Shown here one piece after another: positions 638-22,300 of a DNA stretch of 64,000 nucleotides. The notes below the pieces were generated by a model, which made no database searches, was not told the origin of the DNA, and saw nothing but the letters and a program-made list of their open reading frames with translations. Position 1 is the stretch's first letter, and each line of letters starts with the position of its first letter. The position numbers and the translations under genes were made by a program. Source of the stretch: Antedon mediterranea. Lineage: Eukaryota > Echinodermata > Crinoidea > Comatulida > Antedonidae. The stretch lies in NCBI RefSeq assembly GCF_964355755.1, contig NC_092678.1, positions 271,922 to 335,921 on the forward strand, given 5' to 3'.

Positions 638-2198
638 TCATTGCCAATTATTAAGCTCCATTTGATGGATTAAATCATCTTCCTTGTGCATTTTTAAATG
701 TCTTTTTAAACTAGAAATTTCACTGAGTTTTTTGCCACAATGTTCACATTCATGTGATGGTCGATTATTTGAGTGAATTCTTAAATGCACTTTCCAAGTG
801 CCCCTTCTTTTAAATTTCTTTCCACATTCTTCGCATTCAAATGGCCGTTCTCCCGTGTGTGTTCTTAAGTGTAATTTTAATGATCCACTTTGGATAAACT
901 TTTTCTTGCAATATTCACATTTATATGGTTTTATCCCAGTATGAATTCTCAAATGCGTTTTAAAAGTAGTTCCTTGTCTAAATTGCTTCCCACAATGCTC
1001 ACACTTGTACGGTTTTTCTCCAGTGTGAATACGCATGTGACCTTTTCTAGAACTGCTATCTTTAAACTTCTTCCCACAATGTTCACATTCATACGGTGCT
1101 TCCCCTGTATGTGTTCGTAAGTGCCGTTTCAATGATCCACTTTGCCTGAACTTTTTCTCACAAAGTTCACATTTGAAAGGCGTCTCTCCTGAATGCGTTG
1201 ATAAATGTTTTATCAATTCACACTTGTGAATAAATCTTCTTCCACAAGCATCACATTCATGCGGTCTATCGCCTGTGTGTATTTTCACATGCGACTTTAA
1301 ATGACCACGTTCACGAAATCGTTTTCCACATTGCTCGCATTCATACGGCTTTTCTCCAGTGTGAATCCTAACATGTTTCGTCAGACCGCCATTTTCTCTG
1401 AATGCCTTCCCACAATGCTCACACTTGTACGGTTTTTCTCCCGTATGTATCCGCACATGAATATTTTTAGAACTAATAGTTTTGAATTTCTTTTCACAAT
1501 GTTCACATTCATAAGACGACTCCATCGTGTGTATTCTCAAGTGTTTTTTAAAAGCTCCAAATTGACTGAATATTTTCTGACAATGTTCGCATTCATAATG
1601 TTTATCGTCAGGTATTTCGCTCTTTTTTAAATGAGTTGCAAAGTGTAATTCCAAATGTTTTTCATCATCAAACATTATTTGACAATATTCACATTGATTA
1701 CATGAATGTGTCTTAATAACATGCTCATCTAAGTCGTCCTCATTCTCAAATATCTGTCCACAATGTTCACATTGAATTTGTTCAACTTCTGCATGTTTTT
1801 TGAAATGTGTTTTTAATTCATGCAATTCAAACTTTTCTCCACAGTGTTCACATTTATATTTGATTTGATTTCCATAGTTTAAAATTATTTCTCTATTTTC
1901 TTCTGATTGCAAATGCTCATTTTCTTGGCTTTCACTATAATTTATCTCGTCTTCTGTCGATGAACTGTTTCCCAATATTTCTCCAAAGTTTTCTAAAATA
2001 GAAATTATAACAACTACGGTATATAATTTTAAAAAGAATCAAAATGAAATTAAAATTATTTACATATTTCAAGTTTTATTTATAACATTTAATTAATTAA
2101 TTAATAGGCCTAATTATTTACTTCTTGAAAATATTTATTAAAAACTCACCTATTTTAACTTCTGGAATCATTATAAAGTCATTTTCATATTCTGCCAT
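638..2198 (-). CDS. C2H2 zinc-finger protein with 14 fingers
   Basis: Two coding exons are visible on the minus strand: 2150-2198 (start codon at 2198, MAEYENDFIMIPEVKI) and 638-1992, joined by a GTGAGT donor and a TTTTAG acceptor with matching phase. The protein is about 467 residues: an acidic N-terminal region followed by 14 C2H2 fingers, mostly of the form CEHCGKKF-x-HLRIH with TGEKPY-type linkers between many of the later ones. The first three fingers are spaced irregularly and lack standard linkers. Such proteins normally bind DNA in the nucleus and act as transcription regulators; the target cannot be read from sequence. A further 5' UTR exon ending near 2230 is likely, because TTTTGCAG lies just upstream. 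The second copy at 5.3-6.25 kb is a close paralogue. I do not recognise a named orthologue. Confidence 0.9.
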
Positions 2199-2880
2199 TC
2201 CTAAGAATAGTTTGCAATCAATATTGAAACTGCAAAAGAACAAACAAAAACAAAGTATTATTCCAGGGACGAACCGACCTCAAAATGTCTAAGTCCAGGA
2301 CAAAACGAAGGATCCGCCTGTTCAGTCAACACATTAGGCCATGGACAAGCTAAAAAAAGGAGGCCGCACTCAGTGCGTTCTCAAGATTTAAACATTATTT
2401 TTATAATGTAATAATTATAATAAAGCAATTATAAAAACGCGAATTTTATATTTACGATTGTTATTTTTGTATACAAGTCAAATGAACAAATCTCTTACCA
2501 TGTAGGGCCTAGCTAGGCCAGGCCTTTTTACTTGAATATTTTTTGCTGAAAAAATTATTACAGAGGGCGGCAAACAAGTTTCAGCAACAACAGTAAACAA
2601 AGATCAACTCGGTACCAAATGTCATGCTTTGCTTTTATTAGAACTATATAGCTGTATACTATTACTACATTATTAAGAAATCCAATACAAGAACAATGAT
2701 ATTTCAAACTGTTTAAGTTGGCGATACAAAGCTGCCGTTATCCAATCAAAAGCTTAATTCAACCCACAATGCAGTTAAATAAAAGATATGGTATGCATAA
2801 TACCTGAACAAAATAAACTACATCGTATCTATCCTACATGCACTACCCTTTAACTGCTATCAGTACCCTTCAACTGCTAT
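2199..2880. other. Upstream region of the 14-finger gene, duplicated at 6.25-6.9 kb
   Basis: This stretch matches about 6251-6900 over several blocks, for example around 2270-2345 and 6335-6410 and around 2690-2730 and 6770-6805. It therefore belongs to the duplicated zinc-finger unit and should contain that gene's 5' UTR and promoter. No other coding signal is seen. Confidence 0.6.
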
Positions 2881-3384
2881 CTTATTTTAACATTGATTAC
2901 ACTACTAATGACATAGGCCAGTCAATGTATAGAATCTGTCAACAGATATCTACATCATTATCATTAATAGTAGTACTTTTTTGTTCTGTGACTGAATACA
3001 AATAATCAGGATTCATATCAATGATTATTATTACAAATTGGGAGAAGATTGTGTAGATCTGCACGTGTAGTTACAGTATGTGTCATAGTTAGTTGATATA
3101 CCATAGGCCAGGCAGGTGTAGTGACGTATTATAGTTCAGACTGGAGTAGTGACGAACTTTAGACCAGCCTGGATGTCTCAGAGCCTTGGTTTGTTATAGT
3201 TGAATAAGGAACTTCATTGTTGTGTCACAAAAGATCTACCCAGTTAGGCAGTTTACAGCAATAATCCATGTGGTCCATCAGATTCTTATCTGTAGAGGAC
3301 AAAAGCGCCCAGGCGTAGATTTTCACACATTAAACATTCCATGAAATACACAAACCTTTTTAATGGAAAGATCATGTCATTATA

Positions 3385-6250
3385 TTATAAAAGATGTTTA
3401 CATGGTATCGTGTATGTGTGGTCTCTGTGAGCATCCCCTTGTTCTGACGATGTTTCACTGTGTTTACGTTTACGTGATGGTGGCCCTATATACACCATTT
3501 CATCCTCCTCTCTTGAATTTGGGCAGTACATACTCCGCCGTGATAGCTAAAACAAACAATACATAATAAATGCTTGGTTTCTACTAGAGATGCAGCGCTA
3601 AGACATAAACGCAAGAGATGCAGCGCTAAGACATAAACACAAGAGATGCAGCGCTAAGACGTAAACACAAGAGATGCAGCGCTAAGACGTAAACACAAGA
3701 GATGCAGCGCTAAGACATAAACGCAAGAGATGCAGCGCTAAAACATAAACGCAAGAGATGCAGCGCTAAGACATAAACGCAAGAGATGCAGCGCTAAGAC
3801 ATAAACACAAGAGATGCAGCGCTAAGACATAAACACAAGAGATGCAGCGCTAAGACGTAAACACAAGAGATGCAGCGCTAAGACATAAACGCAAGAGATG
3901 CAGCGCTAAGACATAAACACAAGAGATGCAGCGCTAAGACATAAACGCAAGAGATGCAGCGCTAAGACGTAAACACTAGAGATGCAGCGCTAAGACATAA
4001 ACGCAAGAGATGCAGCGCTAAGACATAAACGCAAGAGATGCAGCGCTAAGACGTAAACGCAAGAGATGCAGCGCTAAGACATAAACGCAAGAGATGCAGC
4101 GCTAAGACATAAACACAAGAGATGCAGCGCTAAGACATAAACACTAGAGATGCAGCGCTAAGACATAAACGCAAGAGATGCAGCGCTAAGACATAAACGC
4201 AAGAGATGCAGCGCTAAGACGTAAACGCAAGAGATGCAGCGCTAAGACATAAACGCAAGAGATGCAGCGCTAAGACATAAACGCAAGAGATGCAGCGCTA
4301 AGACATAAACGCAATGCAAGTCATTTGACCAACTACAAGCGATGGATTATTCAAACTCGCTTGTGTTGGTTTACGTCCTTGTGTTGCCTCTCTAGTGGGA
4401 ACTAAGCTTAAGCAAGTTATTAATGAAAGTTAAGTAAGAGGAGATAAATTGCTTAATTAAGTAGAGAACTTACCAAAGACAATCGAATACATTGCTTTAA
4501 CCTGCATTTCTGCCTAATCCTGTTTGGTCCGCCAAATTTCTTCATATCCTGAAAAAAACATTCATAATAATAATTAAAAAAAATGAAATTAGCAAAAAAT
4601 ATTTGTGCAAACATATACATATAAAGTGACATGGGGTTAATTTGCCACGCATTTTATTATACTGAAACAATCTATTTACCATGCAGTAGTCACATTCCCC
4701 GCAATCGTCTTGACGATAGCAAGCATCACAGTCTCCGCATCTCCGACTTGATCGCTGAAAAAAAATACAAACAAACTTTAAGTTTATGTTCTAAAACCAC
4801 ACAGTTATTAGCTAAAGCTAATTACTGACCACTTTGTGTAATTTATTGCAATGTCTATGGTATCTCTGTACACTTAAAAGTAGCATTAATCTAAATCCCA
4901 ACTTTATATCAATGGCTACCAGATGTCTCTATGTATACCGTTACCTGAACCAGTACTAAAGTGTGTGACTGTATTATAACCACAGTATGAGTTTTGACTG
5001 CTTAAACAAAAGAGCCTATGTTAAGTGTATTATTCTAGAGTGTTTGTTAGACTTATATACTGTACTGACTCCCAAGTATAAACCTAGAAATATAATAATA
5101 CTTTAAATGGATAATGCTTAGGAGATGCATGTATACAGGAGGACCACTTCAGTACACTACAAAGAAATTAGCAGACTAATACCCCAGGGTGGGCTTATAC
5201 ATGAATCAGAAATGGTAATCACAAATCAATGAATAACAAAATTGCAGGTAATGAGCTTACCACAAGTGGTAACTTAACATTATTGGCGTATTCATTACTA
5301 GAACCTTCTGTACCAGATTTCTTCTCTTCGTACGCTTTTAAAAGTTTATCACAAAAACTAGTATCCACTTTATCATCTGCACGTTTCTTTTTTTTCTTTG
5401 ATTTCTTTGATTTCTTCTTTCTATATTTAAATCTCTTCCCACAATGTCCTCCGCCTGTATGTGTTCGTAAGTGCCGTTTCAATGATCCACCTTGCCTGAA
5501 CTTTTTCTCACAAAGTTCACATTTGAAAGGCGTCTCTCCTGAATGCATTGATAAATGTTTTACCAATTCACACTTGTGAATAAATCTTCTTCCACAAGCA
5601 TCACATTCATGTGGTCTATCGCCTGTTTGTATTTTCGACTTTAAATGATCACAAACATGAACATTTTTAGAACTAATAGTCTTGAATTTCTTTCCACAAT
5701 GTTCGGATTCATAATATTTATCCTCATGTATTTCATTCTTTTTTAAATGAGTTGCAAAATGTAATTCCAAATGTTTTTCATCATCAAAAATTAGTTGACA
5801 ATAATCACATTGATTACATGAATGTGTCTTAATAACATGCTCATCTAAGTCGTCCTCATTCACAAATATCTGGCCACAATGTTCACATTGAACTTCTGTG
5901 TGTATATTTAAATGTGTTTTTAAATCATGCAACACAAACTTTTCTCCACAGTGTTCACATTTAAATTTTATTAGATTTTCATTGTTTAAAATGATTTCTC
6001 TTTTTTCTTCTGATTGCAAATGCTCATTTTTTTGTCTTTCACTATAATTTATCTTGTCTTCTTTTCCAAAGTTTTCTAAAATAGAAATAATAACAAATAT
6101 ATAATTTTAAAAAGAATTAAATATTTACATATTTCAAGTTTTATAATTAGGGGCCTATAAAATATTTAATAAATATTTATAAGTATTTATTAAAAACTCA
6201 CCTATTTTAACTTCTGGAATCATTGTACAGTCGTTTTCATATTCTGCCAT
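3385..6250 (-). CDS. Chimeric C2H2 zinc-finger / CXXC-domain protein
   Basis: Five coding exons with consistent phases: 6202-6250, 5261-6075, 4680-4754, 4474-4548 and about 3385-3546, predicting 391 residues. Exon 1 and most of exon 2 copy the neighbouring zinc-finger gene. There are five complete C2H2 fingers and one (the fourth) whose first cysteine is serine (YESEHC). A seventh finger is cut after CGKRFK, and the frame runs on into a lysine-rich stretch and ADDKVDTSFCDKLLKAYEEK, which is the end of CXXC1 exon 5. The next two exons give a full CXXC domain: CGDCDAC, CGECDYC, KKFGG, and the last two cysteines in QKCRLKQC. The last exon copies CXXC1 exon 8; its donor is changed and the frame stops 16 codons before... 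the equivalent region would continue into exon 9, giving a short new C-terminus. The predicted role is nuclear binding of DNA, with CpG recognition through CXXC. Expression is unproven, so a transcribed or silent pseudogene is possible, but all joins are open. Confidence 0.72.
3568..4411. mobile_element. MITE copy expanded by an internal 28 bp minisatellite
   Basis: The ends are inverted repeats related to GGTTCCCACTAGAGA (start near 3570, end near 4410). Nearly all of the interior, about 3590-4316, is some 26 tandem copies of a 28 bp unit beginning AGAGATGCAGCGCTAAGAC. The unit resembles the element's own terminal repeat. It lies in the intron between the copied CXXC1 exons 7 and 8, at the same place as the element at 17337-17850 in the parent gene. 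Confidence 0.75.
3590..4316. repeat. 28 bp minisatellite, about 26 units
   Basis: Unit AGAGATGCAGCGCTAAGACA plus TAAACGCA, with a few alternating variants (ACAT/ACGT, ACGC/ACAC/ACACT). Seen directly. Confidence 0.95.
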
Positions 6251-7338
6251 TCCTAAGAATAGTTTCTAAAGTGTAATCAATATACTACACAAGAACAAAA
6301 AAAAACAAAGTAATGACATGTTATAACAACATCCAAGGACGAACCGACCCCAAAATATCTAAGTCTAGGACCAAACGAAGGATCCGCCTGTTCAGTCAAT
6401 CAGGCCATGGACAAGCTAAAAAAAAGAAGACCACATTCAGTGCGTTCTCAGGATTTAAACATTATTTTTATAATAGGATATAATAAAGAAATTATAAAAA
6501 CGCGAATTTTATATTTTCGACTATTATTGTTTTATACAATTACAAGTCAAAGGAAAAAATCTCTTACCGTAGTAGGCCGGCCACCATGAATTAACTAGGC
6601 TACTAGGAGGAGGCTAGCCTGGAAAAATGATTAGAGAGGGCGGCAAACAAGTTTTTCTTATAATCATAAAAAAAAAGCTCAGCAAATAAAAACTAGTAAC
6701 AAATGTCATGCTTTGTTTTTATTAGAACTACATAGCTGCATACTACAGTATTAGGAAATTCAATACAAGAACAATGATATTTCAAACTGTTTTAGTTGGC
6801 GATACAAAGCTACATTTACATCTCCCTGATTCAACCCACAAGATATGGCAGGGATATAACCTGAACAAAATAAACTGCATATCGTATCAGGTCTATCCTG
6901 CATCCTTCACATGCTACTGACTTGAGTAGATCATTTGTCATGGACACAATATTCTATTTCAATCAACATGTGTTTATCTTACTTTTAACACTTATTACTC
7001 TACTGTAATTAATTATTTTGTTAAACTTTGTAACAAATTTTTAAAACAATTTTTATTTACTTATAAAAAAGCTTCAGAAATGATCTAGATTTGTACAAAG
7101 ATTATTTGATACTTAGTTGTATACTTAGTTGACAATAAGAACATACTTGGAGAACAATTACAGTTTCTCCTTTCTATAAAATTCATTAAAATTAAAAGAA
7201 AATATTGACATTACATAAAATGACCTAAAGAAGAAGTCATGACTGGCAACTTATAAGACTTTGAAACACAGTTAACGGCAAACAACTTAGGGTCAATTGA
7301 GGTTTCAAACCAACCATCTACAATATAAGTTACAAATA
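6251..7338. other. Intergenic region between the chimeric gene and the CXXC1 3' end
   Basis: The left part to about 6900 is a copy of the zinc-finger upstream region at 2199-2880 and probably holds the chimeric gene's promoter. A minus-strand AATAAA near 7047 could serve the CXXC1 3' UTR. No other gene is seen. Confidence 0.5.
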
Positions 7339-10300
7339 TTAAACAGTTTGTGCGACACCGATTGGCATTGCAGGTACTCCACCTACACCCCCTGAAACAC
7401 TTTCTGCCACTTTTGCAGATACATCTAGTCCACCTCCACCCCCTGAAACATTTGCTGTCTCCTGTGTATTTTCTTGAATCCTTTCTGCTGGCTTTTCTTT
7501 ACAAGTTGCTTCTTCAGTTGGCTGCGGTATTCCAATATTCATCTGGGTGTTCACTCCTGTGTTGAACCCAGACTGCATGTGCACCTGGGCCAGCATGTCA
7601 TGATCTATGGTCTGATGCAACATGAGGCCTAGAACACCCGCCCTCTCAGACATCGCCGTACGAATGTTACGCTCTTGCTCAAATAAATCATCCAATTTTA
7701 GCCACTAAAATTTAAAAAAAAATCAAGCTCAGTTCTAAACTAAGAAAGTACTTATTGAATTAATAATAATACAGATTTCTGGAGCATACTACACCACTAA
7801 AGGTGCTCAAGGGGCTGGAAGTATTAAATCAAGAACGTACTTAAATTAATCTTAGCTCTAGTAGTAATCAAAAATCACTATCAATCTCAGTTGTAAACTA
7901 AGAAAGTACTTATTGAATTAAAAGTAGTAAACTAAGAACGTACTTAAATTAATCTTATCTCTAGTAGTAATCACTTACCCAATGAACTCTTTGTAAATCG
8001 ATCTCAGCTCTACGGAGTTTCTCCCAATGAAAGTGTTTGTTGCATTTCTTTTTAGCCATCAGACAGAACTGGTCAGTTTCTTTTAGAATGTTACCCTTTG
8101 TGAGTGGACATCCACAAACCTCGTTGTCACTCACCTGTGGGTCAGAAATATGTCAATCATTAAATGTAACAACTCATTTAGGATTCCCCCTCCTTTGAGA
8201 CAACGATAAGGGGACACTTGAAGGTTCTACTTTAACTTAATACACAGACTACCACTAATTAAACTAGACCAACTGGCGAGGTTTGGTACCAGTAGTCTTT
8301 TAAAGCGAGTGAGGAGTGGCCGAACAGTTAAGACAGTGGAACCATAATTAGCGAGTGAGGAGTGGCCGAACAGTTAAGACAGTGGAACCATAATTAGCGA
8401 GTGAGGAGTGGCCGAACAGTTAAGACAGTGGAACCATAATTAGCGAGTGAGGAGTGGCCGAACAGTTAAGACAGTGGAACCATAATTAGCGAGTGAGGAG
8501 TGGCCGAACAGTTAAGACAGTGGAACCATAATTAGCGAGTGAGGAGTGGCCGAACAGTTAAGACAGTGGAACCATAATTATATAGCCATGACATCGGCAA
8601 GGGTTCGAGGCTGATGCATGGTTCTGGTGGTACGCCGGTGTATTAGTACACACACACTGATCATAACTGGGCCCTCTGGTATTTGACTGAAGAGGCTACA
8701 AAGTATAAAGAATTGATAATAATAAAGTGTTGGTAGAATAAGGAAGGATCCAGTGAACGCTGACTTGGTAATGAGACACTTACCTTTGGGTCTTTAGTGT
8801 GCTCTGGACAAAGTACTTTCAATCGTTTACAGTATGTACTCTGCTGCGGATTGAAATAGTCACAAAACATGGATTCTCTGTAAAAAAGAAAAACGCACTT
8901 AGATATTATAGACAGATTATATAAATCTCTGTCCACACTATCAAAACAAATGTGATGTGCCCAAATATGGTAGTAATATGACATCATTAGACAATAGTGA
9001 AAAAAAATGTTGATATATATTTACCCAGCAATTCTTGTTGGGTAAGCTGACCCATAAGATGTCTGACTCTCCAACTGAAATTAAAATTAAAATGATCGAA
9101 TTTAAACAGTTTTAGCCAAAAGTAATCAAGTTTGATTTACAATGTATTAATTTTAGCGAATATAGAACATTTTCTGATAAACAACATCAAATATAAACAA
9201 TGTTAATAGAATTGTAAATGTATGAATTTTAACAATTTTAATCTGTTTGAGAATTTATAACTTTAATGAATCCTCTTGTACCTTCATGTTTGAATGTTGT
9301 CTGTATATCTTTGAATTGTTTTTAATAGGGCCACTTCAAGTCAGCTGTACTGCTGTAGTACAGTTGTTAAGTTACCCTTGTGAAATGAAGTTGAATAAAT
9401 AAATAAATTGTTCGTTTTAGCCATACCTTACTGAAGCACCTTTGAAAGTGTCTAATAGCTCTGGTTAGGTTCACTGGCATTCCACAAGACACACAGTATA
9501 TACTGAGTTCTGCCTCTTCATCCTCTGTGTTCTAATAAAAAGAGGATGGTTACATTAAAGATGAGCAAAGAATAACAAAGTGACAAGATATGAGAACCAA
9601 CCCATGATCATAACATACATATTTTGATCTTATCACGGATGGTACCACAAAGAAATATAGCTTCTATATCTTTCCGATAATTTACTGGCATTACCAAATT
9701 ACAGACAGGAAGCTGGGGACAGAAGTAAGTTACCCTTTATTTAATTTTGATTTTATTAATTTCAGCAATATTTTAGAGGTGTCCATCCAGCCAAAGCTGA
9801 TCATTAGGGACCCTCACAAAAATACAATATGGCAAGAAATAAACATGTAACAATAAAAATTAAAAAGATAAATAAAATAATGCACAAAAAAATTAAAAGG
9901 AAGATCAAATAAAAAAACAATTAAATTAAATTGGCCATCTTAGAGAGAAGATGGGAAATAGGAAACAATAAACTTCCAAATTGGAGCCTATATCTCACCT
10001 CTTGATCCTGATCAATGGTACAACGTTTGGCCTTCTCAACAATCTTCTTCAATTGGTCAATCTGTTTATCAAGGTCTGCTATGTTTTTCTTTGCGTTCTC
10101 CATGTTTGTCCGAACAACTTCCAGTTCTTTTTTATTTTTCTCTTCCGCTATACAAGGACTCTCCTGCCACTGTTTGATGCGTTGCGGCAGAAACTCAAAG
10201 ATACGACTGTAAACGAACATAATTGTATTCATAGGTAGATTTAAGTATGAGGGTTGGGGTGACTTATTCAAAGAGGGGAGGGACACGTGGTAAATTGCAA

Positions 10301-13300
10301 TGCAAAAGCACTTTTTACAACAATTGTAAGTCCTACATAGGTCACACATATTTCAAAATCTTGGATACGTCACTAGTAAGCGCTCTGATCTTTATGAAAT
10401 AGCGCTATATAAATGTCGCATAGATAGATAGAATGTTTTCATAAGAGTATTTATAAACAGAAATAAAGCAATGGATACAGGGTAGACAGATATACAAAAT
10501 AGCATGTGCACTAATACGAGATATAATTATACAGTAGTTGTAACGGCTATGAGAACTCACTGGCAAGCTTATGGGGCAGAGCAGTGCCCAGAGCAACAAT
10601 AAGCATTACCATATGTCGAAAAGGGCTAAAAATGTCTGAGGCCTCCAGCGTTGGAGGGCCACTTAGAGTTCCTAAACCAGGGGCCTCAAGCCTCTGCGTT
10701 ACACCACTGGATAGATGCTTACTTAGTTGCAAGTTTAAGTCCACACTCATCACTGCAATACTTGCTGTTGGTTCTTGCAACCTTTGTACAGCCAGGTCCA
10801 TTACATTGTTTGGGGATATTTTTTTGTCTTTTTAGTCTTTCATCTCGGTCATCTTTTTGACTGAGTTTTCTCTTCTTTTCCTTCGTCTGGTTAAAAATAA
10901 ATAAACTCAATTAGAACTAGCATCATTACAAGAATGAAAATCACAATTTAAAAGACATGTTAGACTAACAGTTGTGTGTCCATTGGTATGTATATCATAT
11001 TTCAATTACATATTTTGATAATACTTAAATAAACTAAAATATAAACAGTAAAACATACATGTACTTGATATCTTTATAGTTTCAGAGTTCTTCTAAATAC
11101 AGTAAAATAGATCAGTATTCTACAAACAGGCATTTTATAATTAGTAAATATTCTATGCATTTACAAACCTTTTTGTCTTTGCCTTTCACATGCTTAGATT
11201 TCTTGTGTTTCTTAGATAAGCGCTTATCTTTTGCTGGTCTCATCACATAATCAAAGTGGTCTAATAAACTGGGGTCAACATCCTAAAGGTCAAAATGAAA
11301 ATAATAATTTATATGAAAAATAAGTAAATTAATTATTATGAAGAATTATTTTGAAATCTTTTTACAATTATATGTGATCACACACTACCTGAATTTTTAG
11401 ACAAGTCTGTTACGGTTGGCCATTATTTGACCTCTCCACAGTTCATGTGTAGAAGGCAGTAGCAACATTATTGTTTGGTTCCCACTAGGATGCAAAGCAA
11501 GGACGTCAGCACTATGCAACCGAATTGACCAATGACAAGCAACAGTTCAGATAAGTTACTTACATTGTGCTTACGTCCTTGCGTTGCGTCCTAGTGGGAA
11601 CCAAGGTTTAATCTTTATACTAGTTTGAACACTAGCCTAATGTACCTTATGAACTGACCAACTTGCACAAGTAAAACATCACCAATAAATTAACATTAGT
11701 AAAAACACTGTATAGTTTGTAAGAGTAGATTTATTGCACAAACTTAAATACAAGAGATGGTATTAAGAACACTAAATATAAATCAACAACAAATTCTAAC
11801 AAAGAATGAAAAACCAAAACTATAAATTAAGTCTATGTTTGTTTATTTAAATATTTACAAGTATAAAGAACAATTGATTTTGTACAAGTTTACAGCTATT
11901 TTTTTGGGCAAATACAAGATATTTCAATTGAATCATTTTAAAAGCTTGGTTCCCATTCGACACAATTCAGTGACATAGGCACAACGCAGTGATTTGACCA
12001 ATCACGTTGGATGATCTATCGCATCTTGATTGGTCAAATGACCTATTGTTGTGGGAACCAAGTGAAATTGATCTTGTCACTGAAAATGAAAAAAGGATTA
12101 AAACAACTACGACCTTTGACATCATCCATCAAAATATGTCATAAGTGAATTAAAAAAAAACACTGAAAATATATTTTAATTATACAGTATTATCATATTA
12201 TGTATAAGATGGATTTTATAATGTACAAAAATACCATTTTAAGTTGATTGTTAAAATAAATTTGAGATTTATTTACAGAGTTTTCAAATATTGTTAATAT
12301 ATATTCTATCGTAATTGTGTAGTTTTTGTGGACCTTTCTGATTGTTGTGAGCATATCACATAATATACCCAATATTCACAACCAATCTAAAATACTGTAT
12401 GCAACATGCCTTCTTCATTTATACAACAATATACACATTAAAAACAATTAGAAACAATATAGATTAAGATTTTTGGATATCCTCTCATTTCAAATTGAAT
12501 CGAAAAAAATTATAAGCTATATATAAGATATATATTATGCTTGTAGAACATGAATCTTAATAACAAATACAAAAACACAGGCTGCACTTGTTCATCTGTT
12601 GGCAAACTCTGAAGACTGCGTAGAAAATGCATTTTCAAATAATATACAAAAACACAGGCTTTAAACTGCTGTCTGCCATAACTTTACAACAATGCCCTTT
12701 CAGTTTAAATGATTAAAAAATGGAAGAAAAAAACTTATTTAATATGAAATACTGATAAACCTGATTAAATAATGTAGTATACAAATATTGACTGGAAACA
12801 GAGTACTGTATCGTACATGAATTTGTGCATTAAAACACGCACCCAGTTAGAAATTTAATCACTTATTACTATATTTTATCAATAAGCTACAAAAACTGAA
12901 AATTATTTTATTTGTTTAAATTTTAAAAATGGTCCAATGAAATATAAATAACAATCTGCCAAAGACATCCAAAACATTAATCATATTTACGACATACTGT
13001 ATACAATATTTGTTGACAAAAAAGTGTAACAAAACCCATAAAAATAAATATCTTTGGCACAAATGTTATATAAAATCAATAAGGTTTAAACCTCTGTTTA
13101 CACTATTGAACTTGTCTGAGAGTGTGATGTGCCCAAATATGGTAGTGATATGATGTCATATGTCCATATGGGCACATCACATAAAGTTTAATAGTGTAGA
13201 CTGAGCTTAAGTTGTGAAAATAACCTTTTTTAATTGTTTTTAGTGTACCAACATCATGGTAGCACAGTATTAACTATTTACTAGTGTACCAACATCATGG

Positions 13301-16300
13301 TAGCACAGTATTAACTATTTACTAGTGTACCAACATCATGGTAGCACAGTATTAACTATTTACTAGTGTACCAACATCATGGTAGCACAGTATTAACTTT
13401 TTACTAGTGTACCAACATCATGGTAGCACAGTATTAACTATTTACTAGTGTACCAACATCATGGTAGCACAGTATTAACTTTTTACTATTGTACCAACAT
13501 CATGGTAGCACAGTATTAACTATTTACAAGTCTTTTCTAATACAAACCAATAAACATTTTATATACAGATAATTTACAAAATGCTGTTCAAAGATTGAAA
13601 TAATGCATAAAACTATGTCAGACAGGATCCTTGTCAAAACAGACTGGCTTCTGTCAAACTTTATTACAGACTGGCTTCTGTCAAAACTCTATTAAAGACT
13701 GGCTTCTGTCAAACTTTATTACAGACTGGCTTCTGTCAAAACTTTATTAAAGACTGGTTTCTGTCAAACTTTATTACAGACTGGCTTCTGTCAAAACTTT
13801 ATTAAAGACTGGTTTCTGTCAAAATCTATTAGACTGGCTTCTGTCAAACCATTATTACAGACTAGCTACTGTCAAAACTCTATTACAGACTAGCTTCTGT
13901 CAAACTCAATTACAGACAGGATTCTGTCAAACTATTAATACAGACTGGCTTCTTTACAATTTTTCTGCAAATATTAAGCAGATTCTTTAACTCATATAAC
14001 AAAAAGAATAATCATTGGTTTAATATGTTAAAAATGTCTTGTACAATGTATAGAATAACCTTTATCCAATCGTACTGATTGCTTAGCAGGATCATGAAAA
14101 TGAATCCAGGTTGAATGACATAAGCCAGTCTTAATTAAACAATGTATAGAATAACCTTTATCCAATAGTAATGATTGCTTAGCAGGATCATGAAAATGAA
14201 TCCAGGTTGAATGACATAAGCCAGTCTTAATTAAACAATGTATAGAATAACCTTTATCCAATAGTAATGATTGCTTAGCAGGATCATGAAAATGAATCCA
14301 GGTTGAATGACATAAGCCAGTCTTAATTAAACAATGTATAGAATAACCTTTATCCAATAGTAATGATTGCTTAGCAGGATCATGAAAATGAATCCAGGTT
14401 GAATGACATAAGCCAGTCTTAATTAAACAATGTATAGAATAACCTTTATCCAATAGTAATTATTGCTTAGCAGGATCATGAAAATGAATCCAGGTTGAAT
14501 GACATAAGCCAGTCTTAATTAAACAATGTATAGAATAACCTTTATCCAATAGTAATGATTGCTTAGCAGGATCATGAAAATGAATCCAGGTTGAATGACA
14601 TAAGCCAGTCTTAATTAAACAATGTATAGAATAACCTTTATCCAATCGTAATGATTGCTTAGCAGGATCATGAAAATGAATCCAGGTTGAATGACATAAG
14701 CCAGTCTTAATTAAACAATGTATAGAATAACCTTTATCCAATAGTAATGATTGCTTAGCAGGATCATGAAAATGAATCCAGGTTGAATGACATAAGCCAG
14801 TCTTAATTAAACAATGTATAGAATAACCTTTATACAATCGTAATGATTGCTTAGCAGGATCATGAGAATGAATCCAGGTTGAATGACATAAGCCAGTCTT
14901 AATTAAACAATGTATAGAATAACCTTTATCCAATAGTAATGATTGCTTAGCAGGATCATGAAAATGAATCCAGGTTGAATGACATAAGCCAGTCTTAATT
15001 AAACAATGTATAGAATAACCTTTATCCAATCGTAATGATTGCTTAGCAGGATCATGAGAATGAATCCAGGTTGAATGACATAAGCCAGTCTTAATTAAAC
15101 AATGTATAGAATAACCTTTATCCAATCGTAATGATTGCTTAGCAGGATCATGAAAATGAATCCAGGTTGAATGACATAAGCCAGTCTTAATTAAACAATG
15201 TATAGAATAACCTTTATCCAATCGTAATGATTGCTTAGCAGGATCATGAAAATGAATCCAGGTTGAATGACATAAGCCAGTCTTACTTTAACATTGATTA
15301 CACTACTAATGACATAAGCCAGTCTTACTTTAACATTGATTACACTACTAATGACATAAGCCAGTCTTAATTAAACAATGTATAGAATAACCTTTATCCA
15401 ATCGTAATGATTGCTTAGCAGGATCATGAAAATGAATCCAGGTTGAATGACATAAGCCAGTCTTACTTTAACATTGATTACACTACTAATGACATAAGCC
15501 AGTCTTAATTAAACAATGTATAGAATCTGTCAACAGATATTCTACATCATTATTATTAGTAGTACTTTTGTTCTGTGACTGAATACAAATAATCAGGATT
15601 CATATCAATGATTATTATTACAAATTTGGAGAAGATTGTGTAGATCTGCACGTATAGTTATGTGTCATAGTTAGTTGATGTACCATAGGCCAGGCTGCAG
15701 TAGTGATATATTATAGTTCAGGCTGGTGTGGTGATGTACTATCGTCTAGGCTGGCGCATACCATAGTTCAGGCTGGTGTAGTGATGTACCATAGGCCAGG
15801 CTGGTGTAGTGATGTACCATAGTTCAGGCTGGTGTAGCGATGTAGCATAGTTCAGGCTGGTGTAGTGATGTACCATAGGCCAGGCTGGTGTAGTGATGTA
15901 CCATAGTTCAGGCTGGTGTAGTGATGTACCATAGTTCAGGCTGGTGTAGTGATGTACCATAGTTCAGGCTGGTGTAGTGATGTACCATAGGCCAGGCTGG
16001 TGTAGTGATGTACCATAGTTCAGGCTGTTGTAGTGATGTACCATAGTTCAGGCTGGTGTAGTGATGTACCATAGGTCAGGCTGGTGTAGTGATGTACTAT
16101 AGTTCAGCCTGGAGTAGTGACGTACCATAGATCAGGCTTGAGTGATGATGCACCATGAGTCAGGGATATGCTTTCTGAGATAACAATGTTCACAAATTGT
16201 AACTTTGCTGGAGACCAATATCACTGCTATTAGAACAAACTGGTCCCACTAATTCTTACTAACTTCCAAATGTTCTTTAGTACTCAACCAACTTTTGACA

Positions 16301-19300
16301 ACAGATCAGAAGGTCACCAGGTCACCAGATCCTGAGAAAGCTCTCCTCTATCCACTGTAGCACCAGTGCACCAGATCCTGAGAAAGCTCTCCTCTATCCA
16401 CTGTAGCACCAGTGCACCAGATCCTGAGAAAGCTCTCCTCTATCCACTGTAGCACCAGTGCACCAGATCCTGAGAAAGCTCTCCATTGTCCAACGTAGCG
16501 TGTAGCATTTTCCACATTAATGACGCTGTTCAAGACAATCTACTCATGCAGATGTATTCTTCTTAATGCCAGACAAGCACAGATTTCAGAATTCTTACTA
16601 GCATACTCTGCAACAACCAGGTCCAAATAACCATCACTTCTCTCTTCTCTCCAAGTAGTACTCACTCAGATATTTCAGGAATCAACGTCTCAAAGCCTTG
16701 GTGTGTCTTACTGTAGTTGAGGAAGGAACTGGTAGTTGTTGTGTCATGATAGATCCACCCAGTTAGGCAGTTTACGGCAGTAATCCATGTGGTCCATCAG
16801 CCACCAGAATCTTGTCTGTAGAGGACAAAAGCGCACAGGTGAACAGGCGTAGATCTTCATGCTGGGGAACTGGACAAATATACTTAGGGGAAGGCATAGT
16901 TTAACACTTACAGTATATTCAAACCTGATTAATACATTGTCTAAGAATTGCGTGATAAATGTTTCCACAACACAAATATTACATATTACATTTGGCCTTA
17001 ATTAATTTACATTTTTTAACATACAACGCTACAGTGTGCAAGTCTGCACTTTAAACTAATAACATTCACACATTAAACATTACATGAAATACACAAACCT
17101 TTTAAATGGAAATATGTGATAATATTAAAAAAGTATTGTGAAAAGAAATTGGTTCTTACCCTTGGTATCATGTACGTGTGATCTCTGTGAGCATCCCCTT
17201 GTTCTGACGATGTCTCACTGTGTTTACGTTTACGCGATGGTGGCCCTATATACACCATTTCATCCTCTTCTCCTGAATTTGGGTAGTACATGCTCCGCCG
17301 TGATAGCTAAAATAAATAAAACAATACAAAATAAATGCTTGGTTTCCACTAGAGACACAGCGCAGGAGTGTAACTGCAGCGCAGGGACGCAAGGACAGCG
17401 CAGGGATGTAAGCACAGCAGCGCAGGGACATAAGCACAGCAGCGCAGGGACGTAAGCACATCAGCGCAGGGACGTAAGCACAGCAGCGCAGGGACATAAG
17501 CACAGCAGCGCAGGGACGTAAGCACATCAGCGCAGGGACATAAGCACAGCAGCGCAGGGACATAAGCACAGCGCAGGGACGTAAGCACAGCAGGGCAGGG
17601 ACATAAGCACAGCAGCGCAGGGATGTAAGCACAGCAGCGCAGGGATGTAAGCACAGCAGCGCAGGGACGTAAGCACAGCAGCGCAGGGACGCAAGCACAG
17701 CAGCGCAGGGATGTAAGCACAGCGTAGGGATGTAAGCACAGCGTAAGAAAGTAACCGCAACACAAACAATGGACTATGCAAATTGTTGGTAAACTTGCTT
17801 ATGTTGGGTTTACGTCTTTATGTTGCCTCTCTAGTGGGAACTAAGCTTAAGCAAGTTATTAATGAAAGTTAAGTAAGAGGAGAGAAATTGCTTAATTGAG
17901 TAGAGAACTTACCAAAGACAATCGAATACATTGCTTTAACCTGCACTTCTGCCTAATCCTGTTTGGTCCGCCAAATTTCTTCATATCCTGAAAAAACATC
18001 CCATAATAACGATTAAAAAATATGAAATTAGCAAGAAATATTTTAGAGTATAATACTCAATTAAAAGGGTAGCCATCATGTGATAGGGTATTGCTAAACT
18101 GTGCAAACACAATGGACATTCTAACACCTTGAGACATCAAATCATCTGTAGGGTTAATTTTAGCGCATTTTATTATACTGAAACAATCTACTTACCATGC
18201 AGTAGTCACATTCCCCGCAATCGTCTTGACGATAGCAAGCATCACAGTCTCCGCATCTCCGATTTGATCGCTGAAAAAAAGATAAAACAAATTTTAAGTT
18301 TATGTCCTAAAGCCACACAGTAAAGTAGCAGAGTTTATTAGCTAAGTAGAGTGTGTGACTGTATTAAGAAGTATGCGTTTTGACTGCATAAAAAAAATAG
18401 ACAGTAGTAAATGTTTTATCTATTTGTATCATGTCTGTTTCTATGTGTGTGTGCCCAAATATGGTAGTGATATGTCATCATGTCTGTTTGTTTGTACTTA
18501 ATATATACTGTACTGACTTACGTATCAAGTTCTGTGTGTGTGTGCCCAAATATGGTAGTGATATGATGTCATCATGTCCATATATGGGCACATCACATTT
18601 TGTTGTCACATAGAGTTTGATAGTGTAGACAGAGCTTAAGGCTAGCTACAATAATAAATGGATAATGCTTAAGAGATGATTGTATACAGGAGGACCAAAC
18701 ATGAGAACATTACAAAGAAATTAGCAGACTAATACCCCAGGGTGGGCTTATACATGGATCAGTACGTTAATCATAAATGAATAAAAAAAAGGTTGTAATT
18801 ACAGGTAGTGAGCTTACCACAAGTGGTAACTTAACATTATTTGCGTATTCATCACTAGAACCTTCTGTACCAGATTTCTTCTCTTCGTACGCTTTTAAAA
18901 GTTTATCACAAAAACTAGTATCCACTTTATCATCTGCAGGTTTCATTTTCTTTGATGTTTTCTTCTTTCTATCTTTGTCTTTTGAGTGTTTCTTTTTCTT
19001 TTTGTCCTTGTGTTTTTTCTTGTGTTTATCTTTCACCTTGTTTCTATCTCGGTCTCTCGTTCTTGATTTTTTCTTCGCTTTCATTTTTTTTTCAATTTTG
19101 CGGTATATTACATTATTGAAAGGATCTTTTGCTATTTAAAAAACAAACCAGAAAATATGAATAAATATTACATGAATAAAAATTCTTTCTACATCCCATT
19201 AAAAAAAATTTGTACCAAACTAGGTTAATATCAAGTGTAAACCTAATGTTAACAGAATTGTTAATTTAATTAAGTAAATATGTTGTTACATAGTACTGTA

Positions 19301-22300
19301 CTTAGTACTGTACTTAGTACTGTACTTAGTACTGTACTTAGTACTGTAGTACTTGAGAAGGAACTTCTCCCATTCCCTTTACATTTCCTTAATTTCCCCT
19401 TCCTTCTTCACTTCTAAATTAGATCAACAATAAGATAACTCTATACAGCATTGTGTACTTACTGCGACATGGCGGACAGGCATATTTTCTGATATTCTTT
19501 GACGATGATTCTTTTAAATTAACGCAATCACCATGGTACCACTCATTACAGTAGTCACAGCATCTGAAAATGAATTAACAAACTTTTACAAACATTTATT
19601 AAAATGGTTTAAAATCAAGATATATTTTAGAGCATTGAAATTAAAAGGATAGCCATACATTCTTTATTGGTAATGGAAATACTACAGTAATTCTCTGTAA
19701 ATACATCAATCGAATAACACCTTTTATGATGAAGAATGTGTGCCATGAAATCATGTTAAGGGGTAATTTTCCCTGCATTATTCAGGATTAAATCAATAAA
19801 TATAGGCGTCACCATTTTTAGTGAACACTTTTGAGTAACTTAAAAAGCAGTAAATTACACAAAAAGTATGTTACTGTACTGTACACACAAAACCAAATCA
19901 TAATGATGAACACAGACACATAATGTGTTTTTTTATAATGGATGAATTTACGCAAAATCAAATGCAATTATCAATGGCCTGACTGTGACCTCTAAGGAAG
20001 TTTCTAGAGTACAGAATGTCAAAACCAATTGTACGTGCTTAGATAGGATACTCTAATTGACAGATTATGTTCATTACCGTGTAAAGTTTATCAACAAAGA
20101 AACAGAAATACTTGGACGTTATCATGATTTAAACAAAATTACTTTAAATATCAGAAACACTAGCTCGATAATTATGTATTAAGTCAGGGGGAAAAGTGGC
20201 AAAAGGCTTCCTAATTTAAAATAGTTTTATGTGGTTATCATCAGAGGCAGTAGTCTAAAGTATAACTGTATTATCTGTCACAAGTAAATAGACATCTGCC
20301 ACGGAATAAAGTAGCTTTCCAAAATAAAATATACAGTAGTTGCTACAAAACGACATAGAACAGTAAACACATGCTTGATAATCCTGTATTCTGTGTCAAG
20401 AGTAAATATAGGCTTCTGACACGGAATACAAAAATAAAAAATACATAATTTGCTACACGTTTGTAATACAAGTTAGACACATCATGATTGTTTACGAGAT
20501 GATTTTTGCAAGACGTGTCCAGATCGCTTGAGGTAGATTGATTTCTTTCCCAGTCAGTGAATCACTGGAAACGTTTTGAATGTAAAATTAACATAACTGT
20601 CTGAGACAATGCAAATGGTTAATGCAGGAAGCCAGAATGAAATCTGTTGGGATTTGTGTGTGTGTGGCTGGCATGTTACTACAGTAGCATGATTATTGTC
20701 ATGCTTGAATGAATCCTGCTTAAATTCTAAGAATTTAAATTGAAAACAAAGAAACTGATTGCTACTTCTTATAAAATTATAGTTATACCATGATGCAAAA
20801 AAAGTTGAAAGAAAAATAATGCATTTCTATGTGAATTAAATGATAAGATTATTTATCTAAATTCAATTTACATCAAGGGCCGTTGCCAGCTTGAGGCAGA
20901 CGAGGCATTCACCTCATCTGAAATTGTTAATTTTCTCACAACCCACCCCAATTCACCAGTAGAGATAATCGTGTTGTATATTAATAATTATATTTTAAGC
21001 ATCTTTATCTTGTCTGTTTTTAACGTTTACGGCATTGTAAATGCAATAATTCATTAATAACTTTCTATTTAAAGACTTAATTTTGTATTGTTTTGATACT
21101 CACATCATAAATCGTGAGGCATCAGTACTCTGACAAACACAATACAGCTCTGGTGTACTTCTGCTGTTATCTTTGACTGCTGGACCCTTGTCTTTTGCCC
21201 CCTTTTCCATAAATGTCATCAAGCCAGTTACCTTTGCAGCTCTTTCAGGCAACTTGTTGAAGGCCTTAGCAACTTCCTCCTGCTGCTGAAAATAAAATAC
21301 AACAACATATTATTTTCGCGTCTGTACGTCTGCTAAAGTACAGCGCTTAATTTGATGCACCTTTTTGCTTGATGTCATTGATTATCTTTCATAATCAATT
21401 CAATCTGCCGCTAAGTAAAGCTCAACACTATCAAACTTTATGTGTCAAAAAAATGTGATGTGCCCATATATGGACATGATGATGTCATATCACTACCATA
21501 TGTAAGCATAGTTCTACCATATTTGGGCACATCAAACTTTTTTGACAAATAAAGTTTGATAGTGTAGACAAGGCTTTATGTATATATTATCAATTTGATT
21601 CAAATAACATATAATCTTGCATTGTAAAAAGTAATATCATCTGTGTATTTTTTGTTCATCACCACTTTTGCTTTGCAAGAACTAATCATCTCGGATTTCT
21701 CTATGTCTAGATACAGTATGTGTTTAATAAAAATACCAATCTTAACGAACATTCTGAGAAACATAAATGTTTTCACCTCAACTTTATGAATGAAATTATA
21801 CGCAAAAGAATTTTGCTTTGATTTTGAATACTGTACTTAAATAAATGAAAAAAAGTTTGTTGTTTGAGATGCAGTTAAGAAATATGCAAATACAATGATA
21901 GTGTTAGAGTGCACGTAATCAACGCTGTAAAGAATCTGAAGTCTTCCTTCCCTACTGCAGTTAATTCACTAGGATACAATCTATAGATTTTCTTACACGT
22001 ACTAGGACACAATTGATTAAAGCAGGAACTTGATTGTTTTTGCATTTCCTTTTGATTTCTGTCTTATAATTTCAGAGACTTAGTTAGTTCAAGTCTGAAT
22101 TAAGTCTGAAGTATAAAAGATTAGGAAAAGCTCCAGAGTGGAATATAAATAATACACTTTTAATTGTTTTTGTCTATTGCATTGTTAAACAATTAAAAAG
22201 TACTATAATTTGGTCTAATATTTTTTAACAGATCTGTGTCATGTCACATTATTATTATTGAATGAATTACTGTACAGTAGCTTGCATGTCTACACAACTA

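Follow-up and report, generated by a model that had tools for sequence, protein, structure and literature searches.

A chimeric gene joining C2H2 fingers to a CXXC domain between its two parent genes in Antedon mediterranea

The birth of a chimeric gene from duplicated neighbours is already known from Sdic and from other tandem-duplication chimeras. Sdic of Drosophila melanogaster came from a segmental duplication over the two adjacent genes sw and AnxB10, the copies being fused via deletions (PMC7475035). In Drosophila yakuba, tandem duplications that ignore gene borders have produced genes whose 5′ end stems from one gene and whose 3′ end stems from a second (PMC5460883). The locus described here likewise combines parts of two adjacent genes, one of which encodes a CXXC protein. 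CXXC domains occur together with other modules in KDM2A/B, FBXL19, MLL1/2, DNMT1, MBD1, TET1/3, IDAX/CXXC4 and CXXC5 (PMC3685328), as they do in this chimera. In CFP1 the RQ motif of the domain contacts CpG, and the KFGG motif probably confers rigidity (PMC3685328). Binding of H3K4me3 by CXXC1 is assigned to its PHD finger, and binding of SET1 to its central SID region (PMC7145517).

The window, that is, the whole stretch of 64,000 nucleotides analysed here, corresponds to C9:271922-335921 of a 354 Mb assembly made up of 18 contigs. Within it, a gene composed of C2H2 finger exons and CXXC exons lies between the two genes from which these exons were copied.

Structure and origin of the chimeric gene

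The chimeric gene occupies 6250-3385 of the minus strand and has five exons, with a reading frame that has no internal stop and encodes a product of 391 aa; all four introns are of the GT-AG type. These features confirm the five-exon fusion adjoining both parents that had been proposed from the sequence-only reading, and the junctions 6075/6202, 4754/5261 and 4548/4680 given there are exact in the gene model. Along one strand the order of transcription is CXXC1, which donated the 3′ part, then the chimera, then ZNF, which donated the 5′ part; both parents are apparently intact. The features of the locus are as follows:

638..2198, minus strand: ZNF parent, with exons 2198-2150 and 1992-638, 467 aa and 14 finger motifs
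2830..2880, unstranded: second joint, from ZNF upstream sequence to CXXC1 intron sequence; a putative deletion scar, placed to this interval only
2880..5428, minus strand: CXXC1-derived segment, collinear blocks equivalent to 15461-18976 with introns; the unaligned gaps are mainly repeat arrays
3385..3546, minus strand: chimera exon 5, the terminal exon; the donor of the parent is degraded here and a stop follows a few codons on
3586..4314, unstranded: minisatellite inside the final chimera intron, 28-bp unit, 26 copies
4474..4548, minus strand: chimera exon 4, coding for the latter half of the CXXC domain (DMKKFGGPNRIRQKCRLKQC), with one synonymous difference from the parent
4680..4754, minus strand: chimera exon 3, coding for the first half of the CXXC domain, with donor GTAAAT (GTAAGT in the parent)
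5261..6075, minus strand: chimera exon 2, 815 nt; ZNF exon 2 as far as the truncated finger, followed by the end of the CXXC1 exon upstream of the CXXC-domain exons
5421..5428, minus strand: fusion joint, AAATATAG in the chimera and AAAGATAG in both parents
5421..6888, minus strand: ZNF-derived segment, blocks matching about 1060-2829, with the intron and upstream side included
6202..6250, minus strand: chimera exon 1, 49 nt, bearing the ATG; a copy of ZNF exon 1 with donor TAG/GTGAGT
7339..21290, minus strand: CXXC1 parent, with exons for PHD, CXXC and CpG_bind_C; exon borders are placed in part and the 5′ end is not fixed

The chimera is a DNA-level copy that includes introns of both parents. 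Its exons correspond to ZNF 2198-2150 and 1992 to about 1060, and to the CXXC1 exons 18818-18976, 18196-18270, 17913-17987 and 17160-17306. Exon 1 differs from the ZNF parent at 3 of 49 bases, the donor being the same in both. The fusion joint falls within coding exons of both CXXC1 and ZNF, at an 8-base match common to the two parents (AAAGATAG), which encodes Lys-Asp in the same codon phase and leaves the joined frame open. A lysine codon run had been described as common to both sides, but the common stretch is this Lys-Asp match, and the lysine run follows it on the CXXC1 side. Similarly, the placement of the break inside finger 7 holds for the chimera, in which the module is the seventh finger-like one remaining, but not for the parent, where it is finger 10 of 14.

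At the other end, the chimera terminates after exon 5, because the former donor is degraded and the frame meets a stop a few codons later. The donor remnant has a U1 duplex value of -2.0, compared to -8.9 in the CXXC1 parent, and the downstream sequence contains ATTAAA at 3364 and AATAAA at 2639. Read-through splicing from the chimera to ZNF exon 2 appears unlikely, as the terminal donor remnant is weak and the joined codon, from the reading of the phases, would be TAA.

The order of the segments, their breakpoints and the diverged intron copies show a tandem duplication, which we infer to have been a single event. The ancestral locus would have carried CXXC1 and then ZNF in the order of transcription. 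A duplication spanning from the inside of a CXXC1 exon to the inside of a ZNF finger would have left CXXC1 and ZNF whole and created between them a gene that starts with the upstream region, first exon and fingers of ZNF and continues in frame into CXXC1 exons. A later deletion probably removed the 3′ half of CXXC1 from the copy, so that the chimera ends just after the CXXC domain; one complex event may have taken the place of duplication and later deletion. Beyond the left edge of the window, C9:254000-271921 (L010 and L011) contains C2H2 frames of 540, 613, 463 and 820 aa in the same orientation, and the ZNF parent is thus the last member of a finger-gene array adjoining CXXC1.

The locus is also rich in repeats. 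At the intron position of CXXC1 that matches the 28-bp array of the chimera, a 22-bp minisatellite of 17 copies is found (17376-17742). By eye the two units look related, as if one seed had expanded separately after the duplication. An inverted repeat at 11475-11604 (72% over 133 bases) has ends (gttcccactag...) that, also by eye, resemble the minisatellite flanks in both copies; it may be a MITE-like element within which the arrays expanded. In addition, the CXXC1 intron region 13241-16484 carries arrays of 41-, 28-, 96- and 46-bp units, of which the 96-bp array has 13 copies with 98% matches.

Domains kept and lost

Pfam places a zf-CXXC domain at residues 289-333 of the chimera (E 6e-15, 55.5 bits against a cut-off of 26.5). 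The CXXC part also matches the CFP1 structure 3qmb (“CpG-binding protein”) with an E of 7e-21, and the eight cysteines line up, which bears out the earlier claim of a complete CXXC domain. With a score above the curated cut-off, eight cysteines and KFGG followed by RQ (DMKKFGGPNRIRQKC), where domains of this class have RQ or KQ in the DNA-binding loop, it is a type-1 ZF-CxxC domain like that of CXXC1/CFP1 (PMC3685328).

The modules that accompany this domain in CXXC1 are missing from the chimera. Pfam found neither a PHD finger nor a CpG_bind_C region in the 391-aa product, in agreement with the prediction that the fusion lacks the PHD and SET1-side parts. The neighbouring CXXC1 carries both in its other exons (PHD finger, E 7e-11; CpG_bind_C domain, E 2e-98). 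Judged by these two modules, which the neighbouring parent has, the chimera is not a CXXC1/CFP1 orthologue. The SID is presumably encoded among the CXXC1 exons absent from the chimera, judging by where these exons lie, downstream of the CXXC domain.

The finger half, compared to its parent, is reduced and worn. In a motif scan, five C2H2 fingers of the chimera and 14 of the ZNF parent had a full set of ligands, and Pfam, which is stricter, reported one zf-C2H2 stretch versus 10. One finger remnant has Ser in place of the first Cys, and the final finger is truncated. Moreover, the exon 3 donor of the chimera has lost the G at +5, with a U1 duplex of -5.3 kcal/mol compared to -8.6 kcal/mol in the parent.

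The assembly contains at least five CXXC matches, two of which (L008 and L009) are the CXXC1 and chimera exons. By frame reading, L007 (C6:27650618) has a CXXC exon that appears TET-like, in a stretch with a 558-aa open frame, and L005 is probably a KDM2/FBXL19-like CXXC locus. A C2H2 fusion was not evident in the short stretches of listed frames at either of these two loci.

Constraint on the two halves

Substitutions were compared pairwise between chimera and parent. In the CXXC half, 137 codons that exclude the join, the lysine-rich stretch and the last codons contain eight synonymous and five nonsynonymous differences (dS 0.104, dN 0.015, ratio 0.148). For a chimera evolving neutrally since its birth beside a parent without any protein-level change, synonymous and nearby noncoding sites together predict 15.2 nonsynonymous differences (P=0.001), and synonymous sites alone as the neutral rate predict 8.7 (P=0.035), against the five seen. 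Addition of a borderline Pro-to-Arg change just before the 137 codons gives P=0.0026 with both site classes and 0.056 with synonymous sites alone. A cruder Poisson test over all noncoding blocks yields P=1e-5, on which we do not rely because it ignores the uncertainty of the neutral rate. The changes are unevenly spread, exon 5 holding six of the eight synonymous and three of the five nonsynonymous ones. From the first to the last CXXC cysteine there is no amino-acid change at all, the single amino-acid substitution within exon 3 (N to S) preceding them.

The finger half behaves otherwise. Its 233 codons contain 15 synonymous and 37 nonsynonymous differences (dN/dS 0.488), and 37-39 nonsynonymous differences would be expected on a neutral chimera branch, so no constraint is visible. 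Per site, the odds of nonsynonymous change in the finger half exceed those in the CXXC half by a factor of 4.4 (P=0.0005), whereas the two halves are alike in synonymous change (P=0.65). Comparison of the first 137 residues of the finger half with two paralogues resolved 8 of 25 differences, assigning seven to the chimera and one to the parent and leaving 17 ambiguous. The dN/dS and neutrality check suggested by the sequence-only reading gives a divided answer, with a CXXC half that appears constrained and a finger half that fits neutrality. These substitution patterns, read from the DNA, favour retention of the CXXC half.

The history of the reading frame bears on the same question. All six alignment gaps in the ZNF part of exon 2 (24, 9, 84, 144, 6 and 15 bases) are in frame; among the gaps of the noncoding blocks, 3 of 15 are multiples of the frame. 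Gap placement depends on the alignment, as other cut ends give 25, 9, 84, 144 and 6 bases plus an 8-base gap on the opposite side; we read the first and last of these (25 and 8) as end effects. The 84-base gap equals one finger unit and may stem from repeat recombination, which keeps the frame by itself, and the same may apply to the 144-base gap. When the finger-length gap is left out and those of 144 and 6 bases are merged, four gaps are left (P=0.012 at one in three). Neutral simulation of the 370 retained codons produced no stop in 2.6-5.1% of runs, and a neutral phase over only half of the branch gave a probability of no stop of 0.14-0.24. From the full inferred ancestor, a generous target since it contains fingers later deleted, 0.84% of neutral frames remained open when substitutions alone were modelled, and none of 5000 did once indels were added. 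Neutrality of the chimera from birth is unlikely, and the values for a half-branch neutral phase make a recent death possible.

A recent death is what the strongest rival explanation holds, namely that the chimera, born by the same duplication and preserved for some of its life or by chance, is a pseudogene or dying gene now decaying without protein function. The neutral rate of the finger half, the broken finger, the weakened exon 3 donor and the degraded terminal donor are all consistent with such decay, as are the half-branch simulation and a CXXC test that is borderline on synonymous sites alone (0.035, or 0.056 with one more change). However, it has to account for five nonsynonymous changes in the CXXC half where about 15 are expected, for six of six in-frame gaps in exon 2, for four of four GT-AG introns, and for the failure of any frame to stay open in 5000 neutral runs with indels from the generous full ancestor. 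We therefore regard decay as possible but rather doubtful.

It is improbable that the chimera acts via its zinc fingers with the CXXC domain as helper or passenger. Five fingers with all ligands do stand at the front of the protein, but it is the CXXC half that appears constrained, and the excess of nonsynonymous change in the fingers has no counterpart at synonymous sites. Nor does the proposal that the fingers give specificity fit a half that changes at the neutral rate and has kept so few ligand-complete fingers.

In nine noncoding blocks the copy differs from the parents at 120 of 962 sites, and in the noncoding DNA around the CXXC exons at 60 of 544. A far ZNF upstream block (73/303, poorly aligned) and the stretches 2880-3313 (repeat-rich, 80-86% identity) and 4957-5033 (77%) were omitted; being more diverged, their omission is conservative. 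The noncoding blocks beside the CXXC exons differ by 9-16% (one by 5%), compared to 1-6% within these exons. Gene conversion is an unlikely source of the exon conservation, because the differences rise at the exon edges. A 339-base junction query against the 354 Mb assembly returned 22 matches, only one of which has full coverage, so the chimera is single-copy; the two parents rank next, followed by 19 weaker hits of partial coverage with 65-84% identity. Misjoining of two haplotypes or repeats during assembly, which the repeat arrays close by might invite, is very improbable: a noncoding divergence of about 11-12.5% is not that of an assembly echo, exon 2 has deletions of its own, the whole junction is matched at one place only, and the segment order is that predicted for a tandem duplication.

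Proposed role and comparison with known systems

We consider it rather likely, on the basis of the DNA, that the locus is a retained chimeric protein-coding gene from tandem duplication, most likely working as a small CpG reader. Its product would bind unmethylated CpG through the CXXC domain, under ZNF-type regulation and without the PHD and SET1-side parts. Lacking these parts, it could occupy CpG sites without bringing SET1, and might in this way compete with CXXC1. The finger half holds the frame open but looks functionally relaxed. More tentatively, a young gene may here have made the CpG module of a SET1/COMPASS recruiter into an independent CpG reader under different regulation and with no effector, one that competes naturally with CXXC1 at unmethylated CpG and whose fingers are being shed or re-tuned. 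If expressed, the chimera would represent a case in which one exon-shuffling event has naturally uncoupled CpG recognition from the machinery for H3K4 methylation, and would allow the effect of an effector-less CXXC protein on the chromatin of CpG sites to be tested in a living animal.

Compared to CXXC1/CFP1, the chimera lacks the PHD finger and CpG_bind_C and has C2H2 fingers in front. In the account of the 12 mouse ZF-CxxC proteins in PMC3685328, as far as it was available, no C2H2 fingers are named, unlike in the chimera. A limited search of the open-access literature found no C2H2-CXXC protein, which does not show that none exists. Nothing on this pair was found in the available part of PMC2993927, whose table covers chromatin-domain partners only and so weighs little against such pairs.

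With respect to gene birth, Sdic has other parents, is tandemly expanded and has measured male expression (PMC7475035), whereas the present chimera is one copy, read from DNA only. The chimeras of D. yakuba are polymorphic and thought to be mostly very young (PMC5460883), in contrast to the noncoding divergence of about 11-12.5% between the copies here. Since both parents still flank the chimera, the steps of its birth are readable. Unlike in D. yakuba (PMC5460883), the two parents are joined within coding exons of each, and with an 8-base match, the same codon phase on both sides and a frame kept across the joint, the locus offers a well-resolved case of gene birth.
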